This document shows positions 1,139 to 23,475 of a DNA stretch of 30,415 bases, one piece after another. The position numbers and the translations under genes were made by a program. The DNA comes from a virus. Position 1 is the stretch's first letter. Every line of letters begins with the position of its first letter. The stretch spans positions 1 to 30,415 of the IMG/VR virus record IMGVR_UViG_3300049728_000029. One strand, written 5' to 3'. The notes under the pieces were generated by a model. The model was given only the letters and a program-made list of their open reading frames with translations. It had not been told where the DNA came from and ran no database searches.

Positions 1139-1450
1139 TTAGTAAGGACAGGTTTGAACAGGTAAGATTCCTTGTCTAACTAATACTTCTCCAGAGGCAA
1201 GTGTTATTACTGCTCTTATTAAATATGAAACACCAGCAATACCACCAATAATTCTTTGTAGGACAGCAGGAGGATTATCAATAAAATCAGGAGAACCAAA
1301 AATTATGGCCTCTGGATTAGGATCGGTTCCAGAATAAGTAGAAGCAGAAACCACACAAGAAACAATATTATCACCAGTTTGTTGCTCATTTCCAAGCAAA
1401 AAAGTAACGGGTATTATTTCTGACGGATCTTTATATGACAGTAAGGACAT
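1139..1450 (-). CDS. Small Ig-like phage structural/accessory protein
   Basis: 103 residues, starting MSLLSYKDPSEIIPVTFLL. The pattern KDPSEIIPVTF, then a G.P.F...PAVLQRI.GG..GVSYLIRA segment and a closing GEVLVRQGILPV strand is one I recognise from small proteins encoded beside phage fibre or decoration genes; the fold is probably Ig-like beta. The exact role is unknown. It begins 20 nt inside the end of the 1055-residue gene with an excellent AAGGAG site, so the two are translationally linked and may act together on the virion surface. The C-terminus ends in a short Pro/Cys tail (QTCPY). Confidence 0.6.
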   Translation of the reverse strand: MSLLSYKDPSEIIPVTFLLGNEQQTGDNIVSCVVSASTYSGTDPNPEAIIFGSPDFIDNPPAVLQRIIGGIAGVSYLIRAVITLASGEVLVRQGILPVQTCPY

Positions 1451-5731: not shown

Positions 5732-6313
5732 CTACATCTGCCGGGTAAAGGATGTCACAGCCAAAGGACCTGAAGCCACAATAGAAGTAGTGTTCAAGTT
5801 TAAATCTGATCCAGAAGTTCCAACTAAACCCTGCTCAAGAGTTGTCATTAAAGTAGCTGTTCCAGTTCCAGTTAAGGTAGTAGCAGAAGCAACAAACATT
5901 TGACCAGCAGCAGCAGTAGTTCCAGAGGGCAGACCAATAGAAATCCAGTTAGCAGAAGTTGAAGTGCCAAGAGTAGCTATATTGTATACATTGCCTACTA
6001 TAAAACCAGAAGTTGAAATACCGCCAGTAGTTCCAGCAGAATAGGCTCTAAAAAATGAGGCCGTTCCTGTGGCTATTGCGTTCTCCTGGGTAATAGTATT
6101 GGCAGTAATTACAGAAGGAGTAGCAGCAGTAGCAGAACTAAAAGGTGTTGAAGAGAAGGGAACATTAGCTAAAATGACGTTGCTGGATAGAGCGGTATCA
6201 GCATTAGTAGGAGCAGTTCCAGAAAAAATAGCTAACTGGGCAGCAGCACCAAATTGAGCAGCATAATCATTAAGTTCAGTTTCACGTGAAGCCATTGCTA
6301 TTGTTAAAGACAT
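5732..6313 (-). CDS. Tail/surface protein with an inserted beta module
   Basis: 193 residues. Residues 1-95 (LAIFSGTAPTNADTAL and ATGTASFFRAYSAGTTGG) and 157-193 (QGLVGTSGSDLNLNTTSIV) look like the two halves of a short phage protein family of about 130 residues in which the FR.Y.AGTT strand is normally followed directly by the G.VGTSG.DLNLN strand. Between them, residues about 99-156 (VGNVYNIATLGTSTSANWIS, GQMFVASA, GTGTAT) form a separate module of a type I have seen appended to other phage proteins. A good AGGAG site precedes the ATG at 6313. Placement among fibres suggests a virion surface or fibre accessory role; no enzymatic motif is visible. Confidence 0.55.
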   Translation of the reverse strand: MSLTIAMASRETELNDYAAQFGAAAQLAIFSGTAPTNADTALSSNVILANVPFSSTPFSSATAATPSVITANTITQENAIATGTASFFRAYSAGTTGGISTSGFIVGNVYNIATLGTSTSANWISIGLPSGTTAAAGQMFVASATTLTGTGTATLMTTLEQGLVGTSGSDLNLNTTSIVASGPLAVTSFTRQM

Positions 6314-9655: not shown

Positions 9656-11122
9656 TTAAGCCAAAATTAAAGTGATTTCATTAGTTAAAAGAGGAGAAGG
9701 CAAATAAGGTATCTGATTTATATTCATTGCTAATTGAGAGGCAGTAGGGGAAGCTGAAGTTCCTATTGATACATTTAATATAGTTGCTGTAGGAAGTATT
9801 TGAGAAATAGTGGTATAGAAACGAGAGGCATAAATAGTAGCACCTATATTACTTATAGAGGCAGCACCATCAGTTCCTAAAAAGGCCATATTTAAACCTG
9901 TAATACTATTCTGTAATAAGGTTAGAGCATTTGTGGGGGGATTAGAGGCAGCAGCTAATGTTACAGCAATATAAATTGGAATTTGCTGTGGAACTGTGTA
10001 GCATATATTGTATGAGGGTTGATTTCCTACTGGATAATTAGTATCATAAATAGTATATAAAGTGCTTGAGTATATAGTGCTAGAAGATAGGGTAAGATTA
10101 CCACTTAATACATACACTCCAACTCCTCCAGTTGTTCCACTAGTTTGACTTGAAATAGTAACATTATAGGGTTGTTGCGAGGTAGAATTTATTAAACTTT
10201 GTCCAGGAGCTATATAACCAGAAGAAATAGAAGTAACAGTTAAGGTAGTAGTTGAAGAAGAGCCTGTAAAAATAGCAGAAGGAGTATAGTTGCACCCAGG
10301 AGCTTTTTTTGTCCATATTGCATTAGCTATTGAATAGCTATCTCCACCATTAACTGCTACATAAATTGAATTTGGTATTAAAGTTATTCCGCCAAAGGTT
10401 ACATTAACAGAAGTATTATTCTCATATAGATAAGCAGAAACTGGAACTGTTGGAGGATTTAAAGAAGATCCAGAAGAGAGAACAGCAGCTTTCATACTTT
10501 GTAGTATACCAACAGCATTACCTGCTACACTGGCTTGTCTTCTTACTTCAAAGGCCTGTTGAGTTTCTATTGCTAAACCAAGAGCCTGCGTAGATACTGA
10601 TACAATAGAGTCCCATCCTGGAGTTGTTTGATAAATATTTAATGGTGCAGTATAAGCAATTGGCCCAGTAGATACATTATTAAATATTATAGTAGTATTT
10701 GTAGAGCCAATAGTGGCCCCAGAACACTCATATAGATTTCCAGCACCATCTACAGCTAATGGAGTATTAGCAGCCAATACAGTTCCATTTAAGCCCTGAC
10801 AAACCACAGAAAGAGTAGTTGAAGTGGCGGGTATTCTGGTTTGAAAATAAATAGAGCCAATGGCATCCTGCATAAATCCTTGAGCATATTGAGGATCTAC
10901 TTGTGTAACTATATTTAAAAATTGAGAATTACAATCAGAAATAATAGCAGCCATAGAAGAAGCTAATTGACCTTGTGGAGTAGTTAATGAAGAATTTAAA
11001 CCTCCACCAAAGGCATTATTTATATCTGTTTGAACACCAGAAAGTATTTGATTCTCCTCTGGAATAGTGTATCCAGTAGGAGAAAGAGTAGGAATAGGAA
11101 CAGAAGTAGTTACGAGTGTCAT
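9656..11122 (-). CDS. Baseplate wedge protein, J/gp6-like
   Basis: 488 residues. The N-terminal half (PEENQILSGVQTDINNAFGG, TPQGQLASSMAAIISD, GFMQDAIGSIYFQTRIPAT) and the middle (AIETQQAFEVRRQASVAGNA, near 183-203) are hallmarks of the baseplate J family, whose members dimerise into the wedges that trigger sheath contraction. Residues about 284-355 hold an inserted Ser/Thr-rich beta module (TTTLTVTSISSGYIAPGQS and following) like those in the cement, neck and sheath proteins. The C-terminus (NIGATIYASRFYTTISQILP) returns to the J pattern. The gene lies directly between the gp25-like and DUF2612 genes, the standard order W-J-I. AGGT precedes the start. Confidence 0.88.
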   Translation of the reverse strand: MTLVTTSVPIPTLSPTGYTIPEENQILSGVQTDINNAFGGGLNSSLTTPQGQLASSMAAIISDCNSQFLNIVTQVDPQYAQGFMQDAIGSIYFQTRIPATSTTLSVVCQGLNGTVLAANTPLAVDGAGNLYECSGATIGSTNTTIIFNNVSTGPIAYTAPLNIYQTTPGWDSIVSVSTQALGLAIETQQAFEVRRQASVAGNAVGILQSMKAAVLSSGSSLNPPTVPVSAYLYENNTSVNVTFGGITLIPNSIYVAVNGGDSYSIANAIWTKKAPGCNYTPSAIFTGSSSTTTLTVTSISSGYIAPGQSLINSTSQQPYNVTISSQTSGTTGGVGVYVLSGNLTLSSSTIYSSTLYTIYDTNYPVGNQPSYNICYTVPQQIPIYIAVTLAAASNPPTNALTLLQNSITGLNMAFLGTDGAASISNIGATIYASRFYTTISQILPTATILNVSIGTSASPTASQLAMNINQIPYLPSPLLTNEITLILA

Positions 11123-11132
11123 ATTATTAAAC

Positions 11133-11504
11133 CTATGTTAATACTTGAGAAAAAGTAATTCCAGTAGCAGCACCTGTAGTATCTATTATCATAACATCTG
11201 CAGAAAGTGCCCTTGAAGCATATTCAAAAGAAAGATTACTAATTTGAACAGATACAACTCCAGGAACAGTTAGAGCAGTAGTTTGTAGAAGAGAGGATAT
11301 TAATGAAGAAGAATAAGATTGTCCAAATATTTCACTTAAATAAGGAATACCCAAAGTAGTATCATAATAAACTTCTCCTAGAAATGTAGATATAGCAGAA
11401 GCAACATCTTGAGCAATAGCTGAAGAATCAGATAATAGTGCTATATTACCTGATGCGTTAGCATATAGGTCCCAATCAGAAGTTTGTAAGGCAAGCGTAT
11501 TCAT
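11133..11504 (-). CDS. Baseplate wedge protein, gp25/W-like
   Basis: 123 residues. The layout SDWDLYANASGNIALLSDSS, AIAQDVASAISTFLGEVYYD and GIPYLSEIFGQ, followed by a helix, VPGVVSVQISNLSFEYASRA and a final short strand, fits the gp25-like (P2 W) family, an EPR-type baseplate component that connects the wedge to the sheath. Its place between the spike and the J-like gene supports this. AAGGAC lies 11 nt before the ATG. The length is usual for the family. Confidence 0.8.
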   Translation of the reverse strand: MNTLALQTSDWDLYANASGNIALLSDSSAIAQDVASAISTFLGEVYYDTTLGIPYLSEIFGQSYSSSLISSLLQTTALTVPGVVSVQISNLSFEYASRALSADVMIIDTTGAATGITFSQVLT

Positions 11505-11543
11505 ATAATAGTAATTGTCCTTTCTATACTTTAATCAGGCAAA

Positions 11544-12287
11544 TTAACCTTGAGGACCACCAGTAGAACCAGAGCCAGTAGTAACACCAGTATGAGTGTG
11601 TGTGGTAAGAGTAATAGTTCCAGAAGTTATTTGTCCAGTAGTTGTCAAGGAACCTGACATAGTTGATGTGCCACTACCATTTACTGCTATTGTTCCAGCA
11701 ACTATAAGATTACCAGTAACATTAGTTGTAGGAGCTGTTACTGTTACAGTAGAAGCAGTGACATTACAAGTAGATGATGTAGTTATAGCAATTGGATTAG
11801 GACTGATTACATTTATTCCACTATCACTAATCTGAATATAGTTAGTAGGAGCTATTGTAAAGTTATACCCTCCAATATACAGAGCATCAGAATAGTCAAA
11901 AGTTCTTGAAGAAGCAGGCATACTCTGACTTCCACTAACTTTTACGGAACTTATATCCTTTTCTGCAAACATACAAAAGCCGATATCTCCTGCTTTTGGG
12001 TCTATTATTACAGCATTATCTCCACCTTGATATCTGAAATAAGGTACATTATATATCTTACCATGAGAAACAGAATTTCCAGCACCATCCACCTGATTTA
12101 CTAATGGAAGAATAGTTACAGTGCCAACAGGAGAAGTTCCAGAAGACGTAGAGGAAATAACTTTTACTAATGTTGAAGTATGAACTTTTGACAACATCAT
12201 TTTCATAAAAAAAGACATTTGATTAAAGTCAGAATTTCCAGATGCTATATCTTGTTTACCATATACGGGATTGTCTGTATTTGCCAT
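11544..12287 (-). CDS. Baseplate central spike, Gp138-type, with iron-binding tip
   Basis: 247 residues. Residues about 35-130 fit an OB-fold domain as in Gp138-type spikes (LVKVISS, GTVTILPLVNQVDGAGN, GKIYNVPYFRYQGG, VIIDPKAGDIGFCMFAEKDI). Residues 155-225 are a run of short Val/Thr/Ser strands expected to form a trimeric beta-helix. The tip contains HTH at 230-232 (THTHTGV) followed by a Gly/Ser-rich tail; in such spikes paired histidines bind an iron ion at the membrane-piercing point. GAAGG precedes the ATG. The hub gene lies immediately upstream (3-nt gap), matching the order hub, spike, W, J. Confidence 0.85.
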   Translation of the reverse strand: MANTDNPVYGKQDIASGNSDFNQMSFFMKMMLSKVHTSTLVKVISSTSSGTSPVGTVTILPLVNQVDGAGNSVSHGKIYNVPYFRYQGGDNAVIIDPKAGDIGFCMFAEKDISSVKVSGSQSMPASSRTFDYSDALYIGGYNFTIAPTNYIQISDSGINVISPNPIAITTSSTCNVTASTVTVTAPTTNVTGNLIVAGTIAVNGSGTSTMSGSLTTTGQITSGTITLTTHTHTGVTTGSGSTGGPQG

Positions 12288-12289
12288 TA

Positions 12290-13168
12290 TTAATTACCTT
12301 CCCAAGAAGCACTAACTTGTGAAAACCAAGCTCCATTAGGCATTAAAGATGATAATTTATGCTCTAATTTATTAATTCTCCAAGTTCCATTAGCTACTGA
12401 TACTACACTATTTGAAATGGTAACTAATCCACCTAATTTAAGTCCATTATTATATAAACAAGTAAATTTTAATCCTTTTTTATCAAATATAGGATAACCT
12501 TTTAATCCAGTATTAGGAGAAATTACGGGACTTGTACCCTTTCTTGCTACACCTCTTGGAGCAATAAATAATATATCATCATCTATACCAAATTCTATAT
12601 TAGCAGCTTCAGCAATTTGAGAAGCTTGTTGATAAGAAGAACCAGAAATATATTGATTATGTAAAAAAGAATTAACCCCATTATTTTCAAAGGTATATCC
12701 CATTTGAGCAGCTAATCCTGACATTAAATTTGCTACAGAAACTCCACCATTATATCCTGTAGGTGAAGCAGGAGCAATAGCAGGATAAAACCCAGCTAAA
12801 GCCTCAACATGAAAATATATTTGGTCAGAACTTTCATAAGAAGTCCATGCACCACTAATTTCTCCTCCAAAAGCCACTTTTAATGGTGATGTAGTATCTC
12901 CCGCTAGAATACTAATTCTACTTTTATGTATTGCTAATGGTTTTTCAGATTTAGCTGGTAAAGTGGTTAAACTATTCATATCAGATTGTGTCATACCAAA
13001 TACTTTTATTTTAGCTTGATTTTTACTTGGATGACCTGCCTTAACAATTTCAACTTCGGCTCTTAATCCAGATAAAGATAAAGTATTAGATCCATTAGCA
13101 AAAGTTCCACTCTCTAATGTGAAATTTATCTGTAATTCTTTAATGGTATAGGAAGTTAAATTAGACAT
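12290..13168 (-). CDS. Baseplate hub protein (gp27/gpD-like analogue)
   Basis: 292 residues. Features fit the short hub proteins of this phage group: an N-terminal strand rich in polar residues (LRAEVEIVKAGHPSKNQAKI, near 34-53), an FGMTQSDMNSL segment, LAGFYPAIAPA, and SVANLMSGLAAQMGYTFENN (about 143-162). These are followed by ASQIAEAANIEFGIDDDILF (about 180-199), a pattern shared with late-control D-like hubs, and a C-terminal WRINKLEHKLSS strand. The protein should form the trimeric hub joining tail tube and spike. AAAGG precedes the ATG. No lysozyme domain is present. Confidence 0.75.
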   Translation of the reverse strand: MSNLTSYTIKELQINFTLESGTFANGSNTLSLSGLRAEVEIVKAGHPSKNQAKIKVFGMTQSDMNSLTTLPAKSEKPLAIHKSRISILAGDTTSPLKVAFGGEISGAWTSYESSDQIYFHVEALAGFYPAIAPASPTGYNGGVSVANLMSGLAAQMGYTFENNGVNSFLHNQYISGSSYQQASQIAEAANIEFGIDDDILFIAPRGVARKGTSPVISPNTGLKGYPIFDKKGLKFTCLYNNGLKLGGLVTISNSVVSVANGTWRINKLEHKLSSLMPNGAWFSQVSASWEGN

Positions 13169-13179
13169 TATTATACCTT

Positions 13180-13545
13180 TTAAACATTTAATATGGAGTT
13201 AGGAATCTGTAACAGTTGTCCAGAAGTAGTTGAAGGAGCATAAGGACATGTATATAAAGAAATAGTGCAGCTTTGTCCCCCCAAAGTTATATCAAATTGT
13301 TGTGAGGGAATTGCCTGAAGAGGAACTAATAATACATCTACTCCTGTTTGATAATAATATAAAAAATATTCTGATCCTAATCCATCATAGGTTGGATTAG
13401 CACCATCCATACTATCATTAAAATAAAGAATACCATTAAAAGGAAAGCTAATATAATTACCTATACCTATTAAATTATCACAAGGCATTCCAGTATATAT
13501 TGTAATTCCATTAACTATTAAATCCATAAATAAACTATTAACCAT
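13180..13545 (-). CDS. Baseplate plug-like protein, apparently circularly permuted
   Basis: 121 residues. The second half contains LLVPLQAIPSQQFDITLGGQ and CTISLYT, the strands that normally begin the small baseplate-plug (Pam3 gp18-like) family. The first half contains LFMDLIVNGITIYTGMPC, FNGILYFNDSMDGANPTYDG and LGSEYFLYY, which normally end that family. The order of the two halves is thus swapped compared with the members I remember. The genetic position (after Dit-like, before the hub) is exactly that of the plug gene. GAGG precedes the ATG at 13545, and no missing N-terminal piece lies in the 23-nt gap upstream. Confidence 0.7.
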   Translation of the reverse strand: MVNSLFMDLIVNGITIYTGMPCDNLIGIGNYISFPFNGILYFNDSMDGANPTYDGLGSEYFLYYYQTGVDVLLVPLQAIPSQQFDITLGGQSCTISLYTCPYAPSTTSGQLLQIPNSILNV

Positions 13546-13568
13546 AATAACCTCTATATTTTATTATA

Positions 13569-14150
13569 TTAAGCACCAGCAGCAGCATGAGCTCTTCCTG
13601 CTACATTACTTAAACTTAATGGTTCTGAAACAGCAGTAGAACCAGTTGAATTAGCAGAAGAGGGGGACTGTGTTTGTGATTTGCCTTGAATTGTCTTTCC
13701 TTTAGAAGTAGGATTCTTTGAATTTTTTAAAGCAATTGTAGTATATGCTGGAGTTATTTGTCTTATTTCAATAAAGGATAAAACAGCAGTAATCATAGAA
13801 ACACCATTACTTGCCGTTCTGCTATAATCATAAGACTCTAAAGTAGCATTAATATAAGTTATAGCAGGAGTTACTATATTATATAAATTAGCAGCTGATT
13901 TTTCTATTTCCAATTGAGCTAAAAAGGGAATAGTTTTATCTGTTCCATTGGCAGTTAAGGTTATATTAACTTTAAAAGGTTCTACAACTTTGTTATATGA
14001 TGCAAATGACCCCTGCTCTACTGGAAAATCACTGACTTTTGATGAACCCGTATATTTTAAATCAGAAAAGGAGTCTACATTAAAAACTAATGATCCTGGA
14101 TTTCCTGCATTTGAACCAACCGCATAATAAATACCCCAACCATTTGCCAT
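13569..14150 (-). CDS. Dit-like baseplate/distal tail protein
   Basis: 193 residues. Residues about 20-140 carry the Dit-like signature of contractile phages: SLVFNVDSFSDLKYTGSSKV, DFPVEQGSFASYNKVVEPFK, then LYNIVTPAITYINATLESYD and SYDYSRTASNG, MITAVLSFIEIRQITPAY. The last 45 residues are a Ser/Lys/Ala-rich disordered tail. These proteins form the ring at the tail end onto which the baseplate builds. The ATG shares one base with the stop of the tape measure gene (TAATG), and GGAGG lies before it, so translation is tightly coupled. I am confident of the family. Confidence 0.8.
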   Translation of the reverse strand: MANGWGIYYAVGSNAGNPGSLVFNVDSFSDLKYTGSSKVSDFPVEQGSFASYNKVVEPFKVNITLTANGTDKTIPFLAQLEIEKSAANLYNIVTPAITYINATLESYDYSRTASNGVSMITAVLSFIEIRQITPAYTTIALKNSKNPTSKGKTIQGKSQTQSPSSANSTGSTAVSEPLSLSNVAGRAHAAAGA

Positions 14151-15805
14151 TAGAATAAACCTCCATCACTTTGATCAACAAGAGAATGATTTTGTATAGC
14201 TCCATGCATTCCATTAGCTATCCCAGAGGCATCAGTAGCTTGAGGAGCATTAACATTTAATTGCTGTATATTAACTTCCTTATGAGAAGTATTATTAACT
14301 GCTTTATTAGATATAGAAGGTGATAGGGCTTGTCCTGCATTAACCCCAGAACCAGTAATATTCTTTATATCGCCTATTACTTTAATACCAGATTGAATTG
14401 AGCCTTTAAAATCACCAGTTAATAATTTTCCAAAAATAGAATAATAATCTTTTAGCATATTTCCTATATTTTTAAGTTTATTTTCTACCCACATGAAAGG
14501 AGCTTCAGCACTCGTTTTAAAACTTGACCATATATCTTTAAATATTTTTTGGGCTCTAAAATAAAAAATTAATATTCCATAAATTAATAAGACTAATGCT
14601 TCTGATAAAATACGGTTAATATCACCACATAATTTAGACCATGCTTCTTTAATCTTATCTCCATTACCTGTAAAAATGGCAACTAATAGATTCCAAGCCT
14701 GTTTCCAAGTATCTAAATAGGTCATTACTATATCTTTTAATGTAACAAAGACATCCATTACTACTGTTTTTATATTATCCCATATCACCTTAAAGAAATT
14801 AAAGAAAGAATCTAAACTGGTCTTACTTCCAGACATCCACTCTTTCCATTTTTCATATGCCCAACCTATAGCAGCCCCTAAAGCAGCTACTCCAATAACA
14901 ATTAATGTAATAGGTCCACCAATAGCAGCAAGAGCTCCAGCCAAAGACCAAGTAGCAGCAGAAGCAATAAGAGCATTAATACCTATAACAGTAAAGGTAG
15001 TAGCTATTGCAAGTAAGGCATCTATAACAATAGATTTGTGTCCTTCTATCCATTGAACAACTTTTATTAAACCATTAGCAACCGCAGTTAAAGCAGGAAC
15101 CATAACTTCGACTATAGGAAGAGCTGCAGCAGTTATTGTTGTTTTAAGATGATTCATGCCCTTTTCTAATTTTTCGGCATTCTCTGCATCTTGTTCATGA
15201 GCCACTCCTAATTTTAATTGTTCCTCTATTGCTTTTTTAGTAGCTTCTCCACCTTCTTGTAATGATCTAACTACAGCTTCTGACAAACCAAAAGTAGCGC
15301 CCAATTTAATAGCTTTAAAATCCTGTCCTTTGTCATGTAAATTTTTTAAACCCGCAGCAATAGTAGATAACTGTTCTGTAGGATCTTCCTGTTTAATTTG
15401 AGACTTACTAATCCCCAATGCGGCAAGGGCTATTTCTGCTTGTTTTGCGCCTCTTAATTTGGTCCCTACAACAGCTATAGCTTCTCCTACACCCTTAATA
15501 GCAGCATCAGCCTCTTCTGAAGTTCCACCAGCATCTTTTATTACTCCTCTAAAGGCTTCTATTTCTTCCATAGAGGTGTGTGCTTCATCTGCCAATCTTT
15601 TAGCAGAAAGGGCAGCAGCATTAGTAGATTCTATAAATTTATATATACCGGCAGCAGAAGCCATAATTCCAAAGAACTCAAGAGCTCCTTTAGCTAACTC
15701 TGAAAAGGTTTCTTTACCCTTTTCTCCTGCCTTCTCTAAACCTTCATCATACTTTTTATGGTCTAAATCAAGTTCAGCAATTAGTATATCAACTATAGTA
15801 GCCAT
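14150..15805 (-). CDS. Tail tape measure protein
   Basis: 551 residues. An N-terminal helical region (LIAELDLDHKKYDEGLEKAG, ASAAGIYKFIESTNAAALSA) is followed by a coiled region, a hydrophobic core at about 255-312 (VIDALLAIATTFTVIGINAL, GGPITLIVIGVAALGAAIGW), a W-rich stretch (AYEKWKEW, WDNIKTV, WKQAWNLL), another hydrophobic segment near 405-420 (LVLLIYGILIFYF), and a Gln/Asn-rich C-terminus. This is the classic tape measure layout: it sets tail length and may enter the host membrane. At about 0.15 nm per residue the tail would be near 80 nm (inference). It follows the chaperone pair as usual, with GAAGGAAA before the ATG. Confidence 0.9.
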   Translation of the reverse strand: MATIVDILIAELDLDHKKYDEGLEKAGEKGKETFSELAKGALEFFGIMASAAGIYKFIESTNAAALSAKRLADEAHTSMEEIEAFRGVIKDAGGTSEEADAAIKGVGEAIAVVGTKLRGAKQAEIALAALGISKSQIKQEDPTEQLSTIAAGLKNLHDKGQDFKAIKLGATFGLSEAVVRSLQEGGEATKKAIEEQLKLGVAHEQDAENAEKLEKGMNHLKTTITAAALPIVEVMVPALTAVANGLIKVVQWIEGHKSIVIDALLAIATTFTVIGINALIASAATWSLAGALAAIGGPITLIVIGVAALGAAIGWAYEKWKEWMSGSKTSLDSFFNFFKVIWDNIKTVVMDVFVTLKDIVMTYLDTWKQAWNLLVAIFTGNGDKIKEAWSKLCGDINRILSEALVLLIYGILIFYFRAQKIFKDIWSSFKTSAEAPFMWVENKLKNIGNMLKDYYSIFGKLLTGDFKGSIQSGIKVIGDIKNITGSGVNAGQALSPSISNKAVNNTSHKEVNIQQLNVNAPQATDASGIANGMHGAIQNHSLVDQSDGGLF

Positions 15806-15855
15806 TATTTAATTTCCTTCAATCTTTTAATCTTTTAACATGTATATTAAGTAAT

Positions 15856-16466
15856 TTAGTCTTGATTTGCTGCTTGCTTTCTCTTATAAATCAAGTATTC
15901 GTTATAGTTATCTACCTGTATAATTTCTAATAAAAGAAACAAGTCTTCAAGAGAGTATATTTCCTGCAACTCTTGAAGACTTGCTAATTTTTTACTTATT
16001 ACAATCCCTATTCTTGAGGTTGTATTTTGATACTCCGCGAGATTTTCTTCGCCGGAATAGCTGCTGATTCTGATTGGTTGCCAGTGTAAAAAAAACCAAT
16101 ATGTAAATCTAATACTTCTTTTCTTAATTTTAATCGGGTGCTAATTTCTTCTATATCTTCTTCCATTAATGCTCTTCCTTGAGGCATGGCAGCAGGAGCA
16201 ATTTTAACACACTCCATCATTTCATCAAGTAGGGGTTCAGCTAATTCAAAAGGAATAGAACCCAAACTAGATAAATTAACATTGGCCAATCCAGCTATAC
16301 CTTGTTGAGCAGCATCTTCTGGAACTTCAATACCACTTTTCATGAGAGCTAATAGAGCCCTCATTGCCCATTTTTCAGCTTTAGCAGCACCCATTTCAGT
16401 AATAAGATAAGTTTTTCCCTTATCACGATTTTCAGCATCAATTGTAACTAATTTAGTTTTTCTCAA
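15856..16466 (-). CDS. Tail assembly chaperone, -1 frameshift fusion (GT-like, about 203 aa)
   Basis: The frame that follows the short chaperone has no start codon of its own but is open from the slippery T-run at 16095-16089 down to a TAA at 15856-15858. Slipping back one base at T TTT TTT joins residues 1-126 of the short form to 77 further residues that begin LHWQPIRISSYSGEENLAEY, run through KLASLQELQEIYSLEDLFLL and end YKRKQAANQD. The helical, charged second part is what GT-type extensions look like, and the gene lies directly between the tail tube and the tape measure, where such pairs (lambda G/GT, P2 E/E') occur. The long form would bind tape measure and tube subunits during tail assembly. 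It is absent from simple start-to-stop gene calling. Confidence 0.8.
16008..16466 (-). CDS. Tail assembly chaperone, short form (G-like, 152 aa)
   Basis: The product begins (M)RKTKLVTIDAENRDKGKTYL with a LITEMGAAKAEKWAMRALLA helix and ends IKIQPQE. The acidic, helical composition and the position between tube and tape measure mark it as the phage tail assembly chaperone. The start is a TTG at 16466, with AGGG eight bases before it; the next ATG (at M25-like position in EMGAAK) would delete the conserved N-terminal strand. The rare start may keep levels low. Most ribosomes should end at the TAG at 16008; a fraction would continue in the -1 frame to make the longer product. Confidence 0.82.
   Translation of the reverse strand: MRKTKLVTIDAENRDKGKTYLITEMGAAKAEKWAMRALLALMKSGIEVPEDAAQQGIAGLANVNLSSLGSIPFELAEPLLDEMMECVKIAPAAMPQGRALMEEDIEEISTRLKLRKEVLDLHIGFFYTGNQSESAAIPAKKISRSIKIQPQE
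16031..16059 (-). promoter_or_regulatory. GC-rich RNA hairpin downstream of the frameshift site
   Basis: On the coding strand, TATTCCG-G-CGA (16059-16049) pairs with TCG-CGGAGTA (16040-16031): ten base pairs including one T-G wobble, one bulged G and an 8-nt loop. It stands out because the surrounding DNA is AT-rich. It lies 29 nt after the slippery heptamer, farther than the usual 5-9 nt, so its role as frameshift stimulator is uncertain. Confidence 0.45.
16089..16095 (-). promoter_or_regulatory. Programmed -1 frameshift slippery heptamer (T TTT TTT)
   Basis: Zero-frame codons are GGT TTT TTT TAC (16097-16086), so bases 16095-16089 form the X XXY YYZ heptamer T TTT TTT. After a -1 slip, reading continues TTA CAC TGG with no stop until 15856. 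Both tRNA-Phe anticodons can re-pair perfectly after the slip. Confidence 0.75.
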
Positions 16467-16486
16467 GTTATTACCCTAAAATGTAA

Positions 16487-16930
16487 TTATAGATTACTCT
16501 TAATAACACTTTCCCAAACGATAGTGTATTCAACAGGCTGTAAAGTTCGTTTAGCAGCAGGCATATCCATATAAGAAGTTAAAAGACCATTAGTAAGAGT
16601 ATATACAGAACCATTATCCGCCATTGTTATAGTAGCTTGGGCAAAGATAACATTTCCTATAGTGGCCATACCAGAATACCAGTCATCAAAAATTTGTCTG
16701 GAAGGAGAATCTGCCTCTAATTTAACTTTCATAGTTCGTTCTTTATATACAAAGCCCCCAGACAGATGACCATCAACACCCATACGATGTTCTACATGGG
16801 CTGCTGGATCTAGGTCAAACATATCATCTACAGAAAAGCGGGAAATTTGAACAGGAGAATCATAAACTCCTGGAATCTGAATCGCCAGAACTGAATTGAT
16901 GGAGGTAATTGATTGAATCGGTATTGCCAT
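16487..16930 (-). CDS. Tail tube protein (DUF3277-like)
   Basis: 147 residues. The product has the usual tube features: MAIPIQSITSINSVLAIQIP, VQISRFSVDDMFDLDPAAHV, then EHRMGVDGHLSGGFVYKERT, an EADSPSRQIFDDWY helix, and a closing PAAKRTLQPVEYTIVWESVI. This corresponds to the DUF3277 tube family that pairs with DUF3383 sheaths. Tube monomers stack as hexamers inside the sheath and carry DNA. The gene lies immediately downstream of the sheath gene, the standard order, with a CAGGAG site before the ATG at 16930. Confidence 0.85.
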   Translation of the reverse strand: MAIPIQSITSINSVLAIQIPGVYDSPVQISRFSVDDMFDLDPAAHVEHRMGVDGHLSGGFVYKERTMKVKLEADSPSRQIFDDWYSGMATIGNVIFAQATITMADNGSVYTLTNGLLTSYMDMPAAKRTLQPVEYTIVWESVIKSNL

Positions 16931-16991
16931 TTTAGTAAACTCCTGTTATTATTTTATATCTATCTTTTATTATTTATTTCTGTTATTCTTA

Positions 16992-18749
16992 TTATTCTAT
17001 ATCAATGGAGGCAAGACTTAGAGTATTAATACTTCCACCATCCATATACCAAAGAGTGCAGGGAGGGGTGGTTCTATTTCCACGTGAAGTAGCTGTGGCA
17101 TCTAATATCTGAAGATAATAACCAGCAGAATAAAGAGTATTAGCTATATTTGTTCCAGCCTGTGAATTTACAAGAGCTGCTTGTGTAGATGAAAGTGACA
17201 CACCCTTTGAAATAACTCCATTTGATACTGCCTGGGTTAAAATACTCTGACAAGCAGCTTTAATTAAACCATAACCAATATTGTTATAGGGTAAACTATT
17301 AGCACTGGTAAAGAGAGTTATTAGAGCAAGCTGAAGATTACTATTAAGCCAAATCTGATTAACATAACTATCTACCCAATTAAATTCTCCTGATACCTGA
17401 CCATTATAGAAAATATTATAAGGTTGAGCAGCAGTGGCATAAGCCCCATAATAATTATATCCATTAGTAATTAAATTGGCAGCACTTATAGCATCTGTGA
17501 CTGAAGGAGTTATACCAGAACCAGTTCTATAGGCATAAGAAATACGACCATTAATAGCATTATAATTAGTAGAAGCAGCCATTCCTAATACAAAGGCAGC
17601 TACAAGGGGATCCTTATATACTACACAAACACCATTAGTTTCATTAACCGTTAAATAATTACCAAAACCTATAAAATTAGAAGGATTTTCAGTCGCAGTA
17701 ATATCAGTATCATAACATACATATAAAAATTCTAAATCAGTTCCATTAACCCACTGTGCAAATCCTTCTTTTAAGGTTAAAGAAGGTTCAAAAGCACTAG
17801 TAAAAGCTGCCCAATCAGAGTTGTAATTCTGTAGAGTATCCATAAAAGTTACTGGATCAACATTAGCTGAACCCTGTGAAAGAGTTGCACCAGTAGCTTG
17901 ACTTAAAGCAATAGGAATACCAGAAGTAGAGAAGGAGATTGTGGTAGCTTCCAGAGAAGTAGTTCCACCAGTTAAAGTATAAGTAGAACCAGGAGTATTT
18001 AGAACACCTGAAGCAAGAGCAGAAATTACAACAGATCCAGTAACACCAGTAGCAGAAAGTGTAGAACCTAAAGTAATAGTTCCAGAAGTAGGAGCACTAA
18101 CAAGAGTCATAACACCAGGAGAACCGGCAGTTAAAGTGCAAGTTCCACCAGAAGAAGCAGAAGCAGTGGTAGCAGAGCCAGAAGCATAGGCCACTGTATT
18201 AAGACCAGTTCCAGTAGGAGTAGTTACAACAAAAGCATTATATTGTGAAGACCAAGTAATAGTAGTTCCAGTAGCTCCACTTGTAAATGTAAATAGAGAA
18301 GTTAGAGAAGAGGCTGCAGAAGATGGAGAAGTGGCAGTAGCAAATACAGTTGAAACATCAGCTGAAGAGGTATATACTGTTCCATCAATGGTTAGAGTTA
18401 AACTACCTTTAATAGCATTTAAATTAGCAAGAGTAGTTAGAGAAGCTTGAGTGCCTCCTATAATAAAGGCAGCAATTGGAGAAACTGGATAACGACTAAA
18501 AAGAAGAGCAGTAGGAAGCATTGTAGCAGTAGTAAAACCACTAAAATAAACTTGGGCCATTTCTGCTTCCAAAGAAGTTGCTCCAAAATAAGCTGCTACA
18601 CTGGCATATGTAGGAAAACTAACAGGAGCACCAAAAGGCAGATAGGCATATTCAGAAAGAATAAGACCATTTAATGCTAATGCTTGACCACTTGCCTGTA
18701 ATACTGAAGGAGTCACAGAAATAAGTGTATTAACTGGTATGGTTGACAT
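16992..18749 (-). CDS. Contractile tail sheath protein (DUF3383-like)
   Basis: 585 residues. The N-terminus (VTPSVLQASGQALALNGLIL, FPTYASVAAYFGATSLEAEM, AQVYFSGFT, LLFSRYP) and the C-terminal half (DPLVAAFVLGMAASTNYNAI, NGRISYAYR, NYYGAYATA, FNWVDSYVNQIWLNSNLQLA, IGYGLIKAACQSIL) are typical of DUF3383 sheaths, which contract to drive the tube into the host. Between about 196 and 276 sits an extra Gly/Thr/Ser-rich module (PGVMTLVSAPTSGTITLGST and following) like those in the cement, neck and J proteins; it is probably displayed on the outside of the tail. The start is ATG at 18749. Confidence 0.9.
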   Translation of the reverse strand: MSTIPVNTLISVTPSVLQASGQALALNGLILSEYAYLPFGAPVSFPTYASVAAYFGATSLEAEMAQVYFSGFTTATMLPTALLFSRYPVSPIAAFIIGGTQASLTTLANLNAIKGSLTLTIDGTVYTSSADVSTVFATATSPSSAASSLTSLFTFTSGATGTTITWSSQYNAFVVTTPTGTGLNTVAYASGSATTASASSGGTCTLTAGSPGVMTLVSAPTSGTITLGSTLSATGVTGSVVISALASGVLNTPGSTYTLTGGTTSLEATTISFSTSGIPIALSQATGATLSQGSANVDPVTFMDTLQNYNSDWAAFTSAFEPSLTLKEGFAQWVNGTDLEFLYVCYDTDITATENPSNFIGFGNYLTVNETNGVCVVYKDPLVAAFVLGMAASTNYNAINGRISYAYRTGSGITPSVTDAISAANLITNGYNYYGAYATAAQPYNIFYNGQVSGEFNWVDSYVNQIWLNSNLQLALITLFTSANSLPYNNIGYGLIKAACQSILTQAVSNGVISKGVSLSSTQAALVNSQAGTNIANTLYSAGYYLQILDATATSRGNRTTPPCTLWYMDGGSINTLSLASIDIE

Positions 18750-18821
18750 TTATTTTAATCCTTTTAAGAAAAAATTATTCATATAGTAGTAAGTTATATT
18801 TGAGTGTCTCTATTCAATAAA

Positions 18822-19532
18822 TTATTGAGTATTTTGAACTCTATCAAGAACAATCTTACAAGAAGTTGCTGATTGATTGTATGAAATAAGTGTTGGATTA
18901 TATTGTAGATGTAGTCTCATTATCCATCTTTCTTCCCATTGACCTTCTCTATTTAGAAAAGGAATATGAACAGGAGCCTCACTATATAATGGAGCAAAGA
19001 GGTAAGGTGAGAAAAAATCAACAGCCTGTGTAGAACGATAGGCAAGCTCTAACATACTTATCCAATCTGAACCAATTTCCCCATAACAATCTATCTGTAA
19101 AACATAATCTATACTATCTTGTAAAGTTTCACCATTATAATAACCAAATACAGAAGTAGAAGGTATAGTTCCATTATCAATATTTAAATTAAAGGTATTA
19201 GTCGCTTCTCCAATTGATAATATATTGGTATTTAACGCAATTCCTTCACCACTTATCCACATTCCGGGCATTATTCCAGTTCCTGATATAATTGTTAAAA
19301 TTGTGCCAGAAATAGAGCCTGTTATTGTAGTAGATATATCGGCATAAGTATTAGTTGTTGTGGCTAATCTTGTTTTATTTAGATGATTTAATTGTATATA
19401 AGGTGGCTTTGGAGTAGATACCCTATTAATCATTTCTTTGACAACTTGATTTTGAGACACAGGTAAAACAGACTGTATCCAAGAAGACAGAGCAGTAAAG
19501 ATATTAGTATCTGTAATTGAAAGAGTATACAT
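18822..19532 (-). CDS. Neck/tail-terminator protein with inserted beta module
   Basis: 236 residues. Residues 1-68 (NIFTALSSWIQSVLPVSQNQ, TPKPPYIQLNHLNKTRLATT) and 131-236 (LQDSIDYVLQIDCYGEIGSD, WISMLELAYRSTQAVDFF, PLYSEAPVHIPFLNREGQWE, RWIMRLHLQYNP) match the neck or tail-terminator (LIC_12616-type) family of myophages. Those proteins cap the tube and sheath and dock to the head connector. Residues about 69-130 are an extra beta module (ITGSISGTILTIISGTGIMP, WISGEGIALNTNILSIG) inserted between the halves. The position right before the sheath gene agrees. The start lies inside the tail of the preceding gene region (next stop at 19536). Confidence 0.7.
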   Translation of the reverse strand: MYTLSITDTNIFTALSSWIQSVLPVSQNQVVKEMINRVSTPKPPYIQLNHLNKTRLATTTNTYADISTTITGSISGTILTIISGTGIMPGMWISGEGIALNTNILSIGEATNTFNLNIDNGTIPSTSVFGYYNGETLQDSIDYVLQIDCYGEIGSDWISMLELAYRSTQAVDFFSPYLFAPLYSEAPVHIPFLNREGQWEERWIMRLHLQYNPTLISYNQSATSCKIVLDRVQNTQ

Positions 19533-19535
19533 ATT

Positions 19536-19907
19536 TTAGGTATCCAATTGTTGTTTAATAACTACACAGGACCAAGCATCATAACTTTCTAGTATATGAA
19601 CTACAAGCCAAGTAAAGCCATCAAAATATAATTTATCTCCACCTAATCCTCTACTTCTTATTACAGTGTTTAATTGTCCATTTATATATACTTTTCTAAT
19701 TATTCCAGATAGATTAAGTCCATTTATATGTTGTAAATCTGAAGAGCTTAATTCTTGAACTTGTGCTTTTTGGATATAGGAAGGTAAATAATTAGGTATT
19801 TGAGTTCCATCTGGATTTACAGAATATCCATTTGAAATACTTATATTAACTATTCTATTAGCATTTACAGAAGCTATTGAGGAGGAAGCTATACTTTGTA
19901 AGTTCAT
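19536..19907 (-). CDS. Head-closure/neck-like protein of unknown exact role
   Basis: 123 residues, starting MNLQSIASSSIASVNANRIV. The C-terminal half (YINGQLNTVIRSRGLGGDKL, YFDGFTWLVVHILESYDAW, VVIKQQL) has the look of small beta-barrel head-completion or stopper proteins, with a final strand that would pack on a neighbour. It lies between the HK97-gp10-like gene and the neck-terminator gene, a place usually held by head-closure proteins. AAGGAT precedes the ATG at 19907. I do not recall a named domain for it, so the role rests on context. Confidence 0.55.
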   Translation of the reverse strand: MNLQSIASSSIASVNANRIVNISISNGYSVNPDGTQIPNYLPSYIQKAQVQELSSSDLQHINGLNLSGIIRKVYINGQLNTVIRSRGLGGDKLYFDGFTWLVVHILESYDAWSCVVIKQQLDT

Positions 19908-19941
19908 GTTATATCCTTCTTTTTATTATATTATACCACAC

Positions 19942-20385
19942 CTATTTTTTAGTTACTTTAAAGGATACCGCATCTAATAAATTACCAGTATCTATAAGTG
20001 GATCATTAAATCCTTTTGCCTTAACAGTAGAGGGGGCATTTGGTGGAGTATCCCATTCTCTCATAGTCTCTTGTAAATCACCCTTGGCTTGATTTCCTAT
20101 AATATCTAATGCTTTTTCTCCATCAAACTTGGCATTTTTTAATGCTGGTGCTAAAAGTGTAGTCCAATTTTTACGATTTTGATTAACACAAGTAGAAAAG
20201 AAAGGTCTAGCAGGTATATTAGATGTGCCATATTCTTGATAAGCAGCTATTTCTGCGGCACTTTCTCCATTATCTCCTGCTGTGCTACCCTCTAAAAAAC
20301 CAATTTCTAATTTAGCTCCTGCTTTTTTACCAATATCTCGTAATTTATGAGTTAATTTATCGAATTGGGGTGCTTTCATAACCAT
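19942..20385 (-). CDS. HK97-gp10-like tail completion protein
   Basis: 147 residues, starting MVMKAPQFDKLTHKLRDIGK. The signature AAEIAAYQEYGTSNIPARPF, a W..LLAPAL helix, LDIIGNQAKGDLQETM and PPNAPSTVKAKGFNDPLIDT, then GNLLDAVSFKV, is that of the HK97 gp10-like family, which joins head and tail. I chose the ATG at 20385 because AAAGG lies six bases before it and it starts 3 nt after the stop of the DUF4054 gene. A longer reading to 20469 would add a Phe/Cys/Trp-rich stretch that overlaps that gene and lacks a ribosome site. Confidence 0.82.
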   Translation of the reverse strand: MVMKAPQFDKLTHKLRDIGKKAGAKLEIGFLEGSTAGDNGESAAEIAAYQEYGTSNIPARPFFSTCVNQNRKNWTTLLAPALKNAKFDGEKALDIIGNQAKGDLQETMREWDTPPNAPSTVKAKGFNDPLIDTGNLLDAVSFKVTKK

Positions 20386-20387
20386 AA

Positions 20388-20810
20388 CTAACCTTTGGGC
20401 ACGTAAGTAGGAATTGGTTGAGGAGGACCAACATAAAAGAAAGAACGGAAACCAGCAGAAGCTTGCCAAAAAGAAGCACCATATTTAGTCTGCATAAACC
20501 AAGCTTCATAATCGCTTATATTTTTAGACATTTCAGACTTAACTTCAATACTACCTTGTTTAGCATCTGTTATACGACCTACTAACTGGCTTGCAGGTTC
20601 ATCACTGGCACCAAAATAGATAAAGGCTATATGTGCAGTTAACATATTTAACAATAAAGCCCGATAATTAGTGTCAATTACCGGACTATTGTTAGTGTTA
20701 TTACAATATATTTGAGCTTCGTTAAAGCATGATTGAAGATTTGCACTAACCCTTGTGAATTCTGGATAGCGACTTAAAAACATTCCTTGGTTAAAAGTAA
20801 CAACACTCAT
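20388..20810 (-). CDS. DUF4054 head-tail connector protein
   Basis: 140 residues. The family order is clear: FLSRYPEFTRVSANLQSCFN, EAQIYCNNTN, RALLLNMLTAHIAFIYFG, VGRITDAKQGSIEVKSEM, then SDYEAWFMQTKYGASFWQAS and FFYVGPPQPIPTYV. DUF4054 proteins are small helical adaptors that attach to the portal ring (gp6/gp15-type). The gene follows the capsid and a small unknown gene, the standard place. AAAGGA precedes the ATG at 20810. I see nothing unusual apart from the tight junction with the next gene. Confidence 0.85.
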   Translation of the reverse strand: MSVVTFNQGMFLSRYPEFTRVSANLQSCFNEAQIYCNNTNNSPVIDTNYRALLLNMLTAHIAFIYFGASDEPASQLVGRITDAKQGSIEVKSEMSKNISDYEAWFMQTKYGASFWQASAGFRSFFYVGPPQPIPTYVPKG

Positions 20811-20818
20811 TACATCCT

Positions 20819-21283
20819 TTACATTCTGATGACAGGTGAGTCATCTCTCTTTTTACCATCTTTTGAATCGGGTTCTATTGACCTAACTCTATCTGGATTA
20901 ATTTGTTCTAAACCGTTTTTAGTTCCTTCTAATTCTTTGGCTTTAGAAGCAGCATAACTTCGATCATTTTTAGTCCAGGTAATACTTTTATTCATGAAGG
21001 GAGGAAAACCACATTCAGGATTATTTGGATCGGTATTAGGAACTGGAATATCTTTATATAATTCATTTTGCTGAATTACAAAAGCATCCCAAAGTTCTTT
21101 ATCAACTACATTAATACTTCTATCAAGAACCATATTCTCATATGGAGTGCCCTTAAACTTACGATCTTTATTTGGAATGCAATAATGGGCAGCACCATCC
21201 AATTTAAATCGCTGCCCTGTTTTTGCAAGACGACAAACTAAACCATGAGGAAGAGAACACATTACGATAACTGAATCAGCCAT
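20819..21283 (-). CDS. Conserved phage protein between capsid and neck genes, function unknown
   Basis: 154 residues. The N-terminal part (DSVIVMCSLPHGLVCRLAKT, GQRFKLDGAAHYCIPN) reads like a beta structure seen in proteins encoded right after DUF2184 capsid genes; the middle has NVVDKELWDAFVIQQ, and the C-terminal third is highly charged (AKELEGTKNGLEQINPDRVR), ending in a Lys/Asp-rich tail. This recurring gene is usually annotated hypothetical; a head-tail joining or capsid-associated role is possible. AAAGGAG lies before the ATG at 21283, and 81 nt without a gene separate it from the capsid stop; I see no clear promoter or hairpin there. Confidence 0.65.
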   Translation of the reverse strand: MADSVIVMCSLPHGLVCRLAKTGQRFKLDGAAHYCIPNKDRKFKGTPYENMVLDRSINVVDKELWDAFVIQQNELYKDIPVPNTDPNNPECGFPPFMNKSITWTKNDRSYAASKAKELEGTKNGLEQINPDRVRSIEPDSKDGKKRDDSPVIRM

Positions 21284-21364
21284 TTAAATAACTCCTTTAA
21301 TTTCTGGGTAGTGGGCTTTTGTTTTATTAATCAGTTTTATTATTTTAATACTTTTATAACTTTA

Positions 21365-22474
21365 TTAAACACCAAGCAGCTGAACAATACCAGCAGGGAA
21401 CTTAATAACAGTTCCAAAAGTTCCACCACTCTTCTTCTGATGAGTGCTAGAAGTTTCACGAACAATGGCATGAGCTCTTAACTTTTCAGTAAAGGCACAA
21501 ATAGCAGTTTTCTGACCCTGAACTTCATCAAGAATTAGCTGAACAAGATTGCCAGAACTTGTGGAATACTGGGGAGCAACTTTAAATACCATCTTTGGAA
21601 ATACCTTCTGCAGATATTCTTTAATGGAAGCAGTGCCATAAACATTCTGCATTGAGGTAGCTAAAACAGCTTCAGTTAGAGTTGACATAGCAAGTGTCAT
21701 TGGTGAATCCATTCTAACATTACCCTGTAACTGGAACTGTAGCTGGGCAAACATAGCTTTTACATCAGCTAGAATCTGAACACCAGTAATAGTAGAAGCA
21801 GACCAAGCACCAGCAAGAGGAGTTAGTGGAGCAGTTAGAGAGGGGTCATTAAGAAGACCATAATTTTCCAGACCTAATACACCATAAAAATAAGTTTCAT
21901 TCTGGAAGATGTTCATAGCCAGGGCAGCAGAACGATTGATTTCAGCAGCCTGATTAATCTTGCCCAGAGCAGCCTTTTCTAGTTCCAGATCACCCCATTC
22001 AGTAAAAATCTGATAACGGAATGCTTGGCGAGGCTCCCAGTTTGTATTAGTAGTTGCTCGACCGCTTTTAGCAAAATCTCCATAAACAGAAGTTTCACCA
22101 AGAGCTTCATTCACTGGGAAGAGGGCAGAATCAGTAGTCCAATCACCCTTCTTAACTTCACTACCTACTATATCAACAGCAGCTAATACAGCAGTAACAA
22201 CATGAACCATTTCAGGATCAAGATACTGTGAAAGATAAGCAGGAATACCAGCATTACCCTGTAGAACAGCACCAGACTGAATAGGATTGGTTGGAGCAGT
22301 AGCATCAAATGCCATTATCTTTTTACCGGCATCCATACCAACAGTTGAATTGGTAGTAGATATGGCACCAGTAACTAGGCCATAACGATTTCTTGCAAAA
22401 TCCACAAATTCACGTGGATTAGCCTGAGCCTGGGCAGTAAGTTCTTCCAAGGTTGGGCTGGTTAATTTAGACAT
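21365..22474 (-). CDS. Major capsid protein (DUF2184, HK97-fold)
   Basis: 369 residues. Marks of the DUF2184 capsid family are readable throughout: AYLSQYLDPEMVHVVTAVLA, AAVDIVGSEVKKGDWTTDSA, GETSVYGDFAKSGRATTNTN, NWEPRQAFRYQIFTEWGDLE, LEKAALGKINQAAEINRSAA and GVLGLENYGLLNDPSL, with a C-terminal VIKFPAGIVQLLGV strand. It builds the icosahedral shell around the scaffold. An AAGGAG site precedes the ATG at 22474. The gene uses somewhat more C and G in wobble positions than its neighbours by eye, as expected for a highly expressed gene. It lies right after the cement gene. Confidence 0.9.
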   Translation of the reverse strand: MSKLTSPTLEELTAQAQANPREFVDFARNRYGLVTGAISTTNSTVGMDAGKKIMAFDATAPTNPIQSGAVLQGNAGIPAYLSQYLDPEMVHVVTAVLAAVDIVGSEVKKGDWTTDSALFPVNEALGETSVYGDFAKSGRATTNTNWEPRQAFRYQIFTEWGDLELEKAALGKINQAAEINRSAALAMNIFQNETYFYGVLGLENYGLLNDPSLTAPLTPLAGAWSASTITGVQILADVKAMFAQLQFQLQGNVRMDSPMTLAMSTLTEAVLATSMQNVYGTASIKEYLQKVFPKMVFKVAPQYSTSSGNLVQLILDEVQGQKTAICAFTEKLRAHAIVRETSSTHQKKSGGTFGTVIKFPAGIVQLLGV

Positions 22475-22509
22475 GTGTAATTCTCCTTGAGATGTTATAA
22501 AATTAAAAT

Positions 22510-23475
22510 TTAGTGAAGACTAATAGTAACTAAATCACCAACATTACCAGCACTTGTGAAATAGAAGGGAGTTTCAATAAAGGCAGTTGAGGTTACAGCC
22601 TGTGCAGCAATGGTTCCAGGTGTAGTGGAAAGATTTAAAGTGCCAGTAGAACCATTATAAGTGCCTAATGAAGTAATATAGGTTCCAGCAGCAACACTAG
22701 CTGAAGAAATTATCTGACCAACAGCAAAGGTTCCAGAAGTAGTAGCAGTAACAGTCATAACATTGGTAGCAAATGACGCAGTGCCAACACCACCACCAAT
22801 ACCAGTAGGAGTTGTGGTAGTTAGAGAACCAGCAGTAATGCTATATAAAGGAGCCTGGGTAAGAATAACAGTTCCAGTAGAGCCATTAAAGGTTCCAATC
22901 TGATCAATGAAGGTATTAAGAGGAATGTTAGTGCCAAATACTTGCTGACCAATGGCAGGAACACCAGAAGCCACAGCAGTAATATTTAGTGAGAAAGAAC
23001 CCGCTGAAATAGTGCCAGTAATAGCAGAGGCAGAACCAAAACTATTAGTGTTAAAACTTCCAGCAACGCCAGCAAAAATATCACCGGTGAATAGGTTAGC
23101 AAATACCTTATTACCTATAACGGTTTCATTGTAAGGGTTAACTACAAAGAAATCACCACGATCAAAAAGTGTAACACCATAACCAGCAGGAATAGTTAGA
23201 CCAGACTGCTGAAGGAAGGTAACATTTAATGCCTGCATCTCATTAGCAATAAAGCCAGTAGGAGCAACAGGAGGAAGTGAGCTGAAGTTATTTACAACAG
23301 CAGCTTCTGTGGAAACAGCATAGCTCATCCATCCAAACTTACCAATGACGGCACCTTGTGAACCGGCAGTTAGATTACCCTGACCAGCTTTAACAGTGTA
23401 AAGAGGATTTAGGGAAGCCTTGGAACCCACATTACCTTTTGGAAGATAATTATAAACTTGACTCTGAAATGACAT
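22510..23475 (-). CDS. Structural cement/head decoration protein with two beta modules
   Basis: 321 residues. Residues 1-140 (NYLPKGNVGSKASLNPLYTV, AGSQGAVIGKFGWMSYAVS, GFIANEMQALNVTFLQQSGL, TIPAGYGVTLFDRGDFFVVN) match the gp24-like cement family that stabilises the capsid exterior. Residues about 149-218 and 230-297 are two copies of a short beta module (SLNITAVASGVPAIGQQVFG and VMTVTATTSGTFAVGQIISS, each followed by a T.I...GT.NGSTGT strand), and the C-terminus (IETPFYFTSAGNVGDLVTIS) closes the cement fold. The modules are probably exposed on the capsid surface. The gene sits between scaffold and capsid genes. Confidence 0.82.
   Translation of the reverse strand: MSFQSQVYNYLPKGNVGSKASLNPLYTVKAGQGNLTAGSQGAVIGKFGWMSYAVSTEAAVVNNFSSLPPVAPTGFIANEMQALNVTFLQQSGLTIPAGYGVTLFDRGDFFVVNPYNETVIGNKVFANLFTGDIFAGVAGSFNTNSFGSASAITGTISAGSFSLNITAVASGVPAIGQQVFGTNIPLNTFIDQIGTFNGSTGTVILTQAPLYSITAGSLTTTTPTGIGGGVGTASFATNVMTVTATTSGTFAVGQIISSASVAAGTYITSLGTYNGSTGTLNLSTTPGTIAAQAVTSTAFIETPFYFTSAGNVGDLVTISLH

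Follow-up and report, generated by a model that had tools for sequence, protein, structure and literature searches.

The DNA analysed here (hereafter, the window) is the complete IMG/VR record IMGVR_UViG_3300049728_000029, a stretch of 30,415 bases in which the virion genes lie on the minus strand. Four of these genes, which encode virion proteins of unrelated families, harbor five copies of a small module. The capsid cement (decoration) gene (22510-23475) was assigned by matches to PF23982 XM1_gp53_minor_capsid (2e-16) and phrog_2122 (1e-33), and the neck/tail terminator gene (18822-19532) by matches to PF23961 (1.3e-17) and phrog_1876 (2.2e-35). The tail sheath gene (16992-18749) belongs to PF11863 DUF3383 (4e-100) and has a solved homologue in E217 gp31 (8ENV/8FVG), and the baseplate J wedge gene (9656-11122) matches phrog_6 (3.6e-30), with E217 gp44 as its solved homologue.

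A preliminary description of the window had proposed that one small beta module was inserted five times in these proteins. The four genes and five segments are present roughly where it had placed them, and we refined the segment borders to residues 153-221 and 232-295 in the cement protein, 71-128 in the neck terminator, ~200-276 in the sheath and 286-350 in J. On the window, copy 1 of the cement protein occupies residues ~152-221 (22813-23022) and copy 2 residues ~229-297 (22585-22791), both supported by profile matches and by AlphaFold2 (AF2). The neck terminator copy comprises residues 71-128 (19149-19322) and the baseplate J copy residues ~286-351 (10070-10267), each supported by the profile together with site occupancy in relatives. 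The most divergent copy, that of the tail sheath, spans residues ~200-276 (17922-18152) and is supported by a bridging copy from locus L125, an alignment designated A6, and AF2. All five lie on the minus strand.

Homology of the five segments and their insertion sites

When the five segments were compared pairwise, their raw scores only partly exceeded those of shuffled sequences. Cement copy 1 against copy 2 outscored 1000 of 1000 shuffles, while the neck-sheath and sheath-J pairs did not stand out. Because raw pairwise resemblance was insufficient, evidence from beyond the window was needed. A sheath scan provided 22 related loci, to which 80 IMG/VR and 19 GTDB loci were later added with one single module copy as query. 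A profile seeded on the two cement copies and iterated over the open reading frames (ORFs) of the first 22 loci collected 36 copies at an independent E-value (iE) <1e-3, with the best reversed or shuffled sequence in this first round at 0.1 to 1.1. The enlarged profile, run over 5309 ORFs, identified 305 copies in 194 ORFs from 113 loci, and no reversed sequence appeared at E<=10 in that search. Among the window copies, it recognized cement copy 2 (iE 2.5e-16), cement copy 1 (2.9e-13), the J copy (2.2e-10) and the neck copy (1.8e-4), the last improving to 1.2e-8 with one further profile round.

To exclude from each profile any module of the host family being tested, leave-one-host-family-out profiles were built. 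These still detected cement copy 2 (48.8 bits), cement copy 1 (38.7 bits), the J copy (35.5 bits) and the neck copy (21.7 bits). By comparison, 1200 block-shuffled versions of the window proteins scored at most 7.6 bits with the full profile, and none of the remaining window proteins, the head-completion protein included, exceeded 2.5 bits with the module profile. In the near-identical 41-kb phage G001, one profile matched all five segments with E-values of 1.5e-19 to 1.3e-5, and the same search revealed no sixth copy. Thus, the profile check proposed in the preliminary description, run against the genome and other phages, recognized the five segments and located copies in many phages.

The sheath copy is the weakest link among the five segments. 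It was missed by the enlarged profile and by its own leave-family-out profile. The connection is made by the L125 copy, which is 56% identical to the sheath copy over 50 residues (E 9e-10) and 50% identical to cement copy 2 over 68 residues (E 8.5e-9). Moreover, alignment A6, which contains the L125 copy and excludes the sheath copy, matches the sheath copy directly in G001 (E 1.3e-5). The L125 bridge took the place of a comparison between profiles of the sheath pair and of the module, which had given a probability of 17.6% and an E-value of 0.0014. Together, these data support a homologous module in four unrelated virion proteins, as had been suggested: the cement, J and neck copies by leave-family-out detection and the sheath copy via L125 and A6. 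The window sheath copy also shares 76% identity with part of an unrelated protein in another phage (L024). This sheath-unrelated protein, encoded at L024 9908-10852 on the plus strand, represents the clearest single between-gene transfer that we observed; it matched neither a PHROG nor, by tblastn, any cultured phage.

The idea that each host family resumes on both sides of the insert is borne out by relatives of the sheath, J and neck proteins that lack the module and are contiguous at the site. In sheath relatives, the module is found at four sites, namely after the YFG motif, before the TVTYDS strand, after TTGA and at the window site before IALSQATGA, and the sheaths of L010, L012, L013 and L023 have none. 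The J proteins show three sites, one used in the window, L020 and L006, one in L013 and a C-terminal one in L009, L011, L017 and L022; the J protein of L010 is module-free. The shared neck site is occupied in 7 of 15 proteins (the window and six relatives) and vacant in the other 8, and L114 has an additional site. Cement proteins carry one, two or three copies ahead of the last strand, after which the host C-terminal strand resumes; relatives with one copy in place of two support insertion here as well. Six cement relatives with ~45-50% identity to the window share a pair of copies at one position. The window head-completion gene (20388-20810, minus strand) has no module, whereas its homologue in L007 (7046-7708, phrog_302), to which it can be aligned, bears one.

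Spread of the module and its relation to known domains

To determine which proteins host the module, we masked the modules and clustered the remaining sequence, which yielded 38 host clusters; all loci in this census had been fetched because they carry the module. Among the PHROG-typed hosts were the head closure Hc3 and head-tail adaptor families (54 loci each). Other PHROG-typed hosts were the cement, sheath, J and neck proteins, head protein 1912, a DUF2612 structural protein, the major head protein, a head-completion protein, wedge 438, tail protein 376 and several tail fibres. Across many other uncultured phages, no fewer than a dozen kinds of virion protein contain the module. Outside phage genes, a Roseicella protein that includes a GH5 cellulase domain has two modules. 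This protein (L108 2157-6353, plus strand) contains two GH5-cellulase-like stretches; both modules lie in the second, and the equivalent position of the first is taken by a unit of similar appearance (ISGTGIPGNTTVISVDTPTQFTISNAATAAGT).

In bacterial genomes with several matches, these were clustered in one stretch of one contig (7 in 20 kb in Paraburkholderia and 7 in 8 kb in Sulfuritalea), which fits prophages and not general low-complexity sequence. Prevalence was low: with the seed genome counted in both cases, the module was present in 4 of 200 genomes from the family to which the Paraburkholderia genome belongs and in 1 of 287 from the phylum that includes the Patescibacteria genome. Searches by tblastn of cultured phages with the isolated module or its consensus gave nothing or one weak match, probably as a result of masking by the low-complexity filter, and so are no proof of absence. 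The cultured Methylophilaceae phage P19250A, found via a capsid-type query, has no module.

The relationships among copies bear on how a genome came to hold several. For none of 50 modules from multi-copy genomes was the closest match in the same genome, and for 36 of them it was a module from another host family in another genome; since foreign modules far outnumber own ones in this sample, the result is an indication rather than a test, although own-genome scores were uniformly low. This agrees with the earlier view that the copies are diverged and not recent, as no copy has its closest module in its own genome. The claim of one module inserted five times is upheld as regards a single homologous module, but five insertions within this lineage are not required, as the copies are closer to those of other phages. 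Copies in the same genome resemble each other less than they resemble copies in other phages, often in other genes, which fits separate acquisition from a shared pool. The five window copies are best read from their sequences as members of such a pool, acquired separately or very long ago. Duplication within the genome as the origin of the five copies is unsupported, given the 0 of 50 best matches in the own genome.

The module has no name in current collections. Neither Pfam, searched with 22 members and with 44 diverse ones, nor NCBIfam provides a model for it, none of the known carbohydrate-binding module profiles in these two databases matches it, and no description of the domain was found in the open-access literature. 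Searches of PDB sequences returned MCE/YebT, LysM-type and other chance-level matches. The profiles of PHROGs 21413 (unknown function) and 38233 (tail fibre) contain the module and match 16 of 22 and 12 of 22 copies, respectively; both are long, covering whole proteins (595 and 896 positions), and neither delimits the module nor records its spread.

Protein mosaicism is general in phages (PMC10684548), and a close parallel exists in the 936 lactococcal phages, where carbohydrate-binding modules are found on the neck passage, major tail and Dit proteins, and two of them bound host cells (Hayes et al. 2019, PMC6669499). Like the window module, these are small units grafted on several proteins of one virion and variable from phage to phage. 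However, the 936 modules have folds related to known carbohydrate-binding modules, whereas the window module belongs to another sequence family, very poor in aromatic residues. It also reaches the cement, sheath, J, head closure and adaptor proteins. A further comparison is with the phage immunoglobulin (Ig)-like domains and Hoc, promiscuous all-beta units on unrelated virion proteins with a proposed role in weak surface or mucus binding; the Ig-like domains reportedly described by Fraser and colleagues in 2006 are mostly terminal or frameshift additions. The window module is likewise a promiscuous all-beta unit on many unrelated virion proteins, but it has no Ig profile or fold match and sits inside the host fold at several sites.

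Other repeats occur in the window. A 193-residue protein (5732-6313, minus strand) contains another T/S/G-rich unit (GFIVGNVYNIATLGTSTSANWISIGLPSGTTAAAGQMFVASATTLTGTGTA), which is unmatched by the module profile and resembles a second recurrent phage theme. A 1055-residue protein (1431-4598, minus strand) consists of many near-tandem units such as GTSNGSLSISGQ and matches neither a PHROG nor, with any meaningful E-value, a Pfam family. Separately, ~200 bases within 15806-16466 lie between a tape-measure-like ORF (14150-15805) and an ORF with a TTG start (16008-16466), and this gap lies where a frameshifted tail chaperone is usually encoded.

Predicted fold of the module

Structure predictions of the two cement copies and the sheath copy revealed a common six-strand pattern and not different folds. 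The AlphaFold model of the cement protein, made with 16 alignment rows, has a mean predicted local distance difference test (pLDDT) score of 81.5 and shows the six-strand series twice, at residues 148-221 and 229-297, with block values of 83-92 in copy 1 and mostly 84-91 in copy 2. The isolated sheath copy was also predicted with six strands, at a mean pLDDT of 70.5; its alignment of 14 rows included other modules, so that the model is biased towards them.

In Foldseek searches of viral predictions, a predicted HK97 major capsid protein aligned over the module only (72 columns, 1.1 Å, 40% identity), and multi-domain matches were obtained with a P22 gp10-like protein and with giant-virus collagen-like proteins. 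In BFVD, the best match of the cement model by E-value was a protein with collagen repeats from Indivirus, a giant virus, which suggests, at the level of predicted models, that similar units may occur outside phages. Against solved structures, the cement part of the model aligned with Pam3, FCWL1 and T1 capsid chains. Module-sized phage matches of this model began with 8ECI chain 1 (72 columns, 2.7 Å, 29%), which is gp7, a protein that decorates the capsid of Arthrobacter phage Bridgette. The same chain also headed the matches of the isolated sheath copy (query-normalised template modelling score 0.59, 3.1 Å), ahead of F1-ATPase and EF-Tu barrels. These 8ECI matches have Foldseek probabilities of 1.00 and 0.97, but E-values of 0.3-0.6. 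No Ig domain was present among the 50 best PDB matches listed for the isolated sheath copy, a moderate-confidence model. This match list, with barrels and without Ig domains, favours a small barrel over an Ig sandwich. The module is thus predicted to be a ~65-residue six-stranded beta unit, probably a barrel.

Bridgette gp7 is described as a dimeric cement protein that bridges capsomeres (PMC13033339), and it shares a sequence theme with the window module (VGRTITRAGIPAGTTITAV..GT). It is a stand-alone protein of 126 residues, whereas the window module is an inserted domain. By sequence gp7 reached only 6.4 bits with heavy bias, and PDB profile searches did not return it; with so low a score, common ancestry of gp7 and the module is not established. 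The GenBank entry for gp7 (L140 6585-6965, plus strand) bears the label 'hypothetical protein' although the protein was solved as a decoration protein in 8ECI.

Exterior display, function and rival explanations

The likely position of the module on the particle can be judged from solved relatives of its hosts. XM1 gp53, which belongs with the cement protein in one family, assembles into trimers at the surface of the capsid (PMC10457771), and the sheath family has been solved in E217 (PMC10329688). The XM1 sheath has an extra domain in its N-terminal domain, lying horizontal with that domain in the extended tail (PMC10457771). Like the window sheath, it thus holds an extra domain within the sheath, but this one is reported to be unique to XM1 and FliD-D3-like and is not the window module. 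Because of these precedents, the cement and sheath modules are likely, by analogy, to face the particle exterior. For most hosts, we consider exterior display probable.

Composition sets the module apart from its hosts. Modules contain 51% T/S/G, 3.0% charged, 3.7% aromatic and 0.1% Trp residues, compared with 26% T/S/G, 13.4% charged, 10.1% aromatic and 1.8% Trp in these proteins outside the modules. Conservation falls mostly on Gly, Thr and buried-type aliphatic positions. Neither composition nor conservation pattern hints at a classical carbohydrate-binding site, and a classical carbohydrate-binding module appears unlikely from the sequence. These properties would fit a compact, neutral, non-catalytic surface unit. 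Adhesion to glycans, mucus or the cell surface, the function put forward in the preliminary description, is plausible by analogy.

The five segments almost certainly belong to one autonomous mobile domain family traded among phages. In the explanation that we favour, the module would be dropped into surface loops of virion proteins, leaving the host fold undisturbed, and would move by recombination between phages and between genes. High-copy hosts such as the cement and sheath proteins would then coat the particle exterior with the module. The result may be a weak multivalent layer, in which many contacts of low affinity and low specificity with the host extracellular matrix or cell envelope would hold the particle near cells. 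A contact layer is preferred because of the tail-fibre and cellulase contexts, where adhesion modules are common, and because of the 936-phage precedent. Contact or adhesion as the selected function is nevertheless a tentative proposal, argued by analogy, and the explanation as a whole, a mobile surface domain forming a multivalent contact layer, is in our judgment evenly poised. Several findings weigh against it: aromatic and charged residues are very scarce, with no conserved polar or aromatic patch, unlike classical carbohydrate-binding modules; the 8ECI match is weak in structure (Foldseek E 0.3-0.6) and in sequence (6.4 bits); and the sheath copy depends on a bridging copy and a modest model (pLDDT 70.5).

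A structural role, in which the module serves as a spacer, clamp or passivating neutral coat that stabilises the particle or prevents sticking and is not an adhesin, is a lesser though real possibility. The closest solved fold, Bridgette gp7, is a stand-alone capsid decoration protein, the composition (51% T/S/G, 3% charged) suits such a coat, and the adaptor, head closure and neck proteins are odd places for receptor binding. However, the sites vary within one family and many relatives are module-free, so the module is dispensable for assembly, and it is also present in tail fibres and in a cellulase-domain protein. It is rather unlikely that the module is a tolerated passenger, a compact domain that fits any surface loop, was spread by recombination and has little or no function in most hosts. 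Patchy presence, the many sites, the lack of conserved functional residues and sister phages without the module in the same genes all speak for this alternative. Yet two copies are kept at one place in the six cement relatives, the head-closure and adaptor insertions are common to their 54 loci each (among loci fetched for carrying the module), and open frames and structural residues have been preserved across long divergence.

That the segments are Ig-like domains of the type known on phage virions is very improbable. The promiscuous habit is the same, with small all-beta units on capsid, neck, tail and baseplate, but no Pfam Ig, Big (Big_2), I-set, fn3 or PKD match was obtained in the sets of 22 and 44 members, and we rejected this identity as the top structures of the isolated copy were 8ECI and the F1-ATPase and EF-Tu barrels, with no Ig domain among the 50 listed. 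Finally, chance resemblance of T/S/G-rich linkers in a low-complexity proteome, for which the weak raw scores of several pairs and the T/S-rich proteome might be cited, can be practically dismissed: the reversed and block-shuffled controls and leave-family-out detection refute it for the cement, J and neck copies, and the exactly five matches in the 41-kb relative, the clustering of matches in single prophage-like stretches and the repeated six-strand prediction also contradict it.

Promiscuous virion domains as such are already known; the novelty lies in how widely an unnamed, non-Ig one is spread. Such phage surface domains have so far been discussed almost solely as Ig-like or carbohydrate-binding modules, and this very common module reaches core machinery, including the contractile sheath, head closure and adaptor proteins. 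With a named profile, many phage proteins now listed as hypothetical would be annotated, and tail-fibre labels due to the module alone would be corrected. The natural pairs with and without the module at the same site make its effect on adsorption and stability directly testable. Somewhat short of an even judgment, we suggest that this undescribed family may act as a general exterior brick, the same non-Ig beta-barrel grafted on capsid, connector, sheath, baseplate and fibres. On a similarly guarded view, its hosts would be myo-, podo- and probably siphovirus-type phages, in which a particle-wide coat of the module may tune the interaction of the virion with its surroundings.

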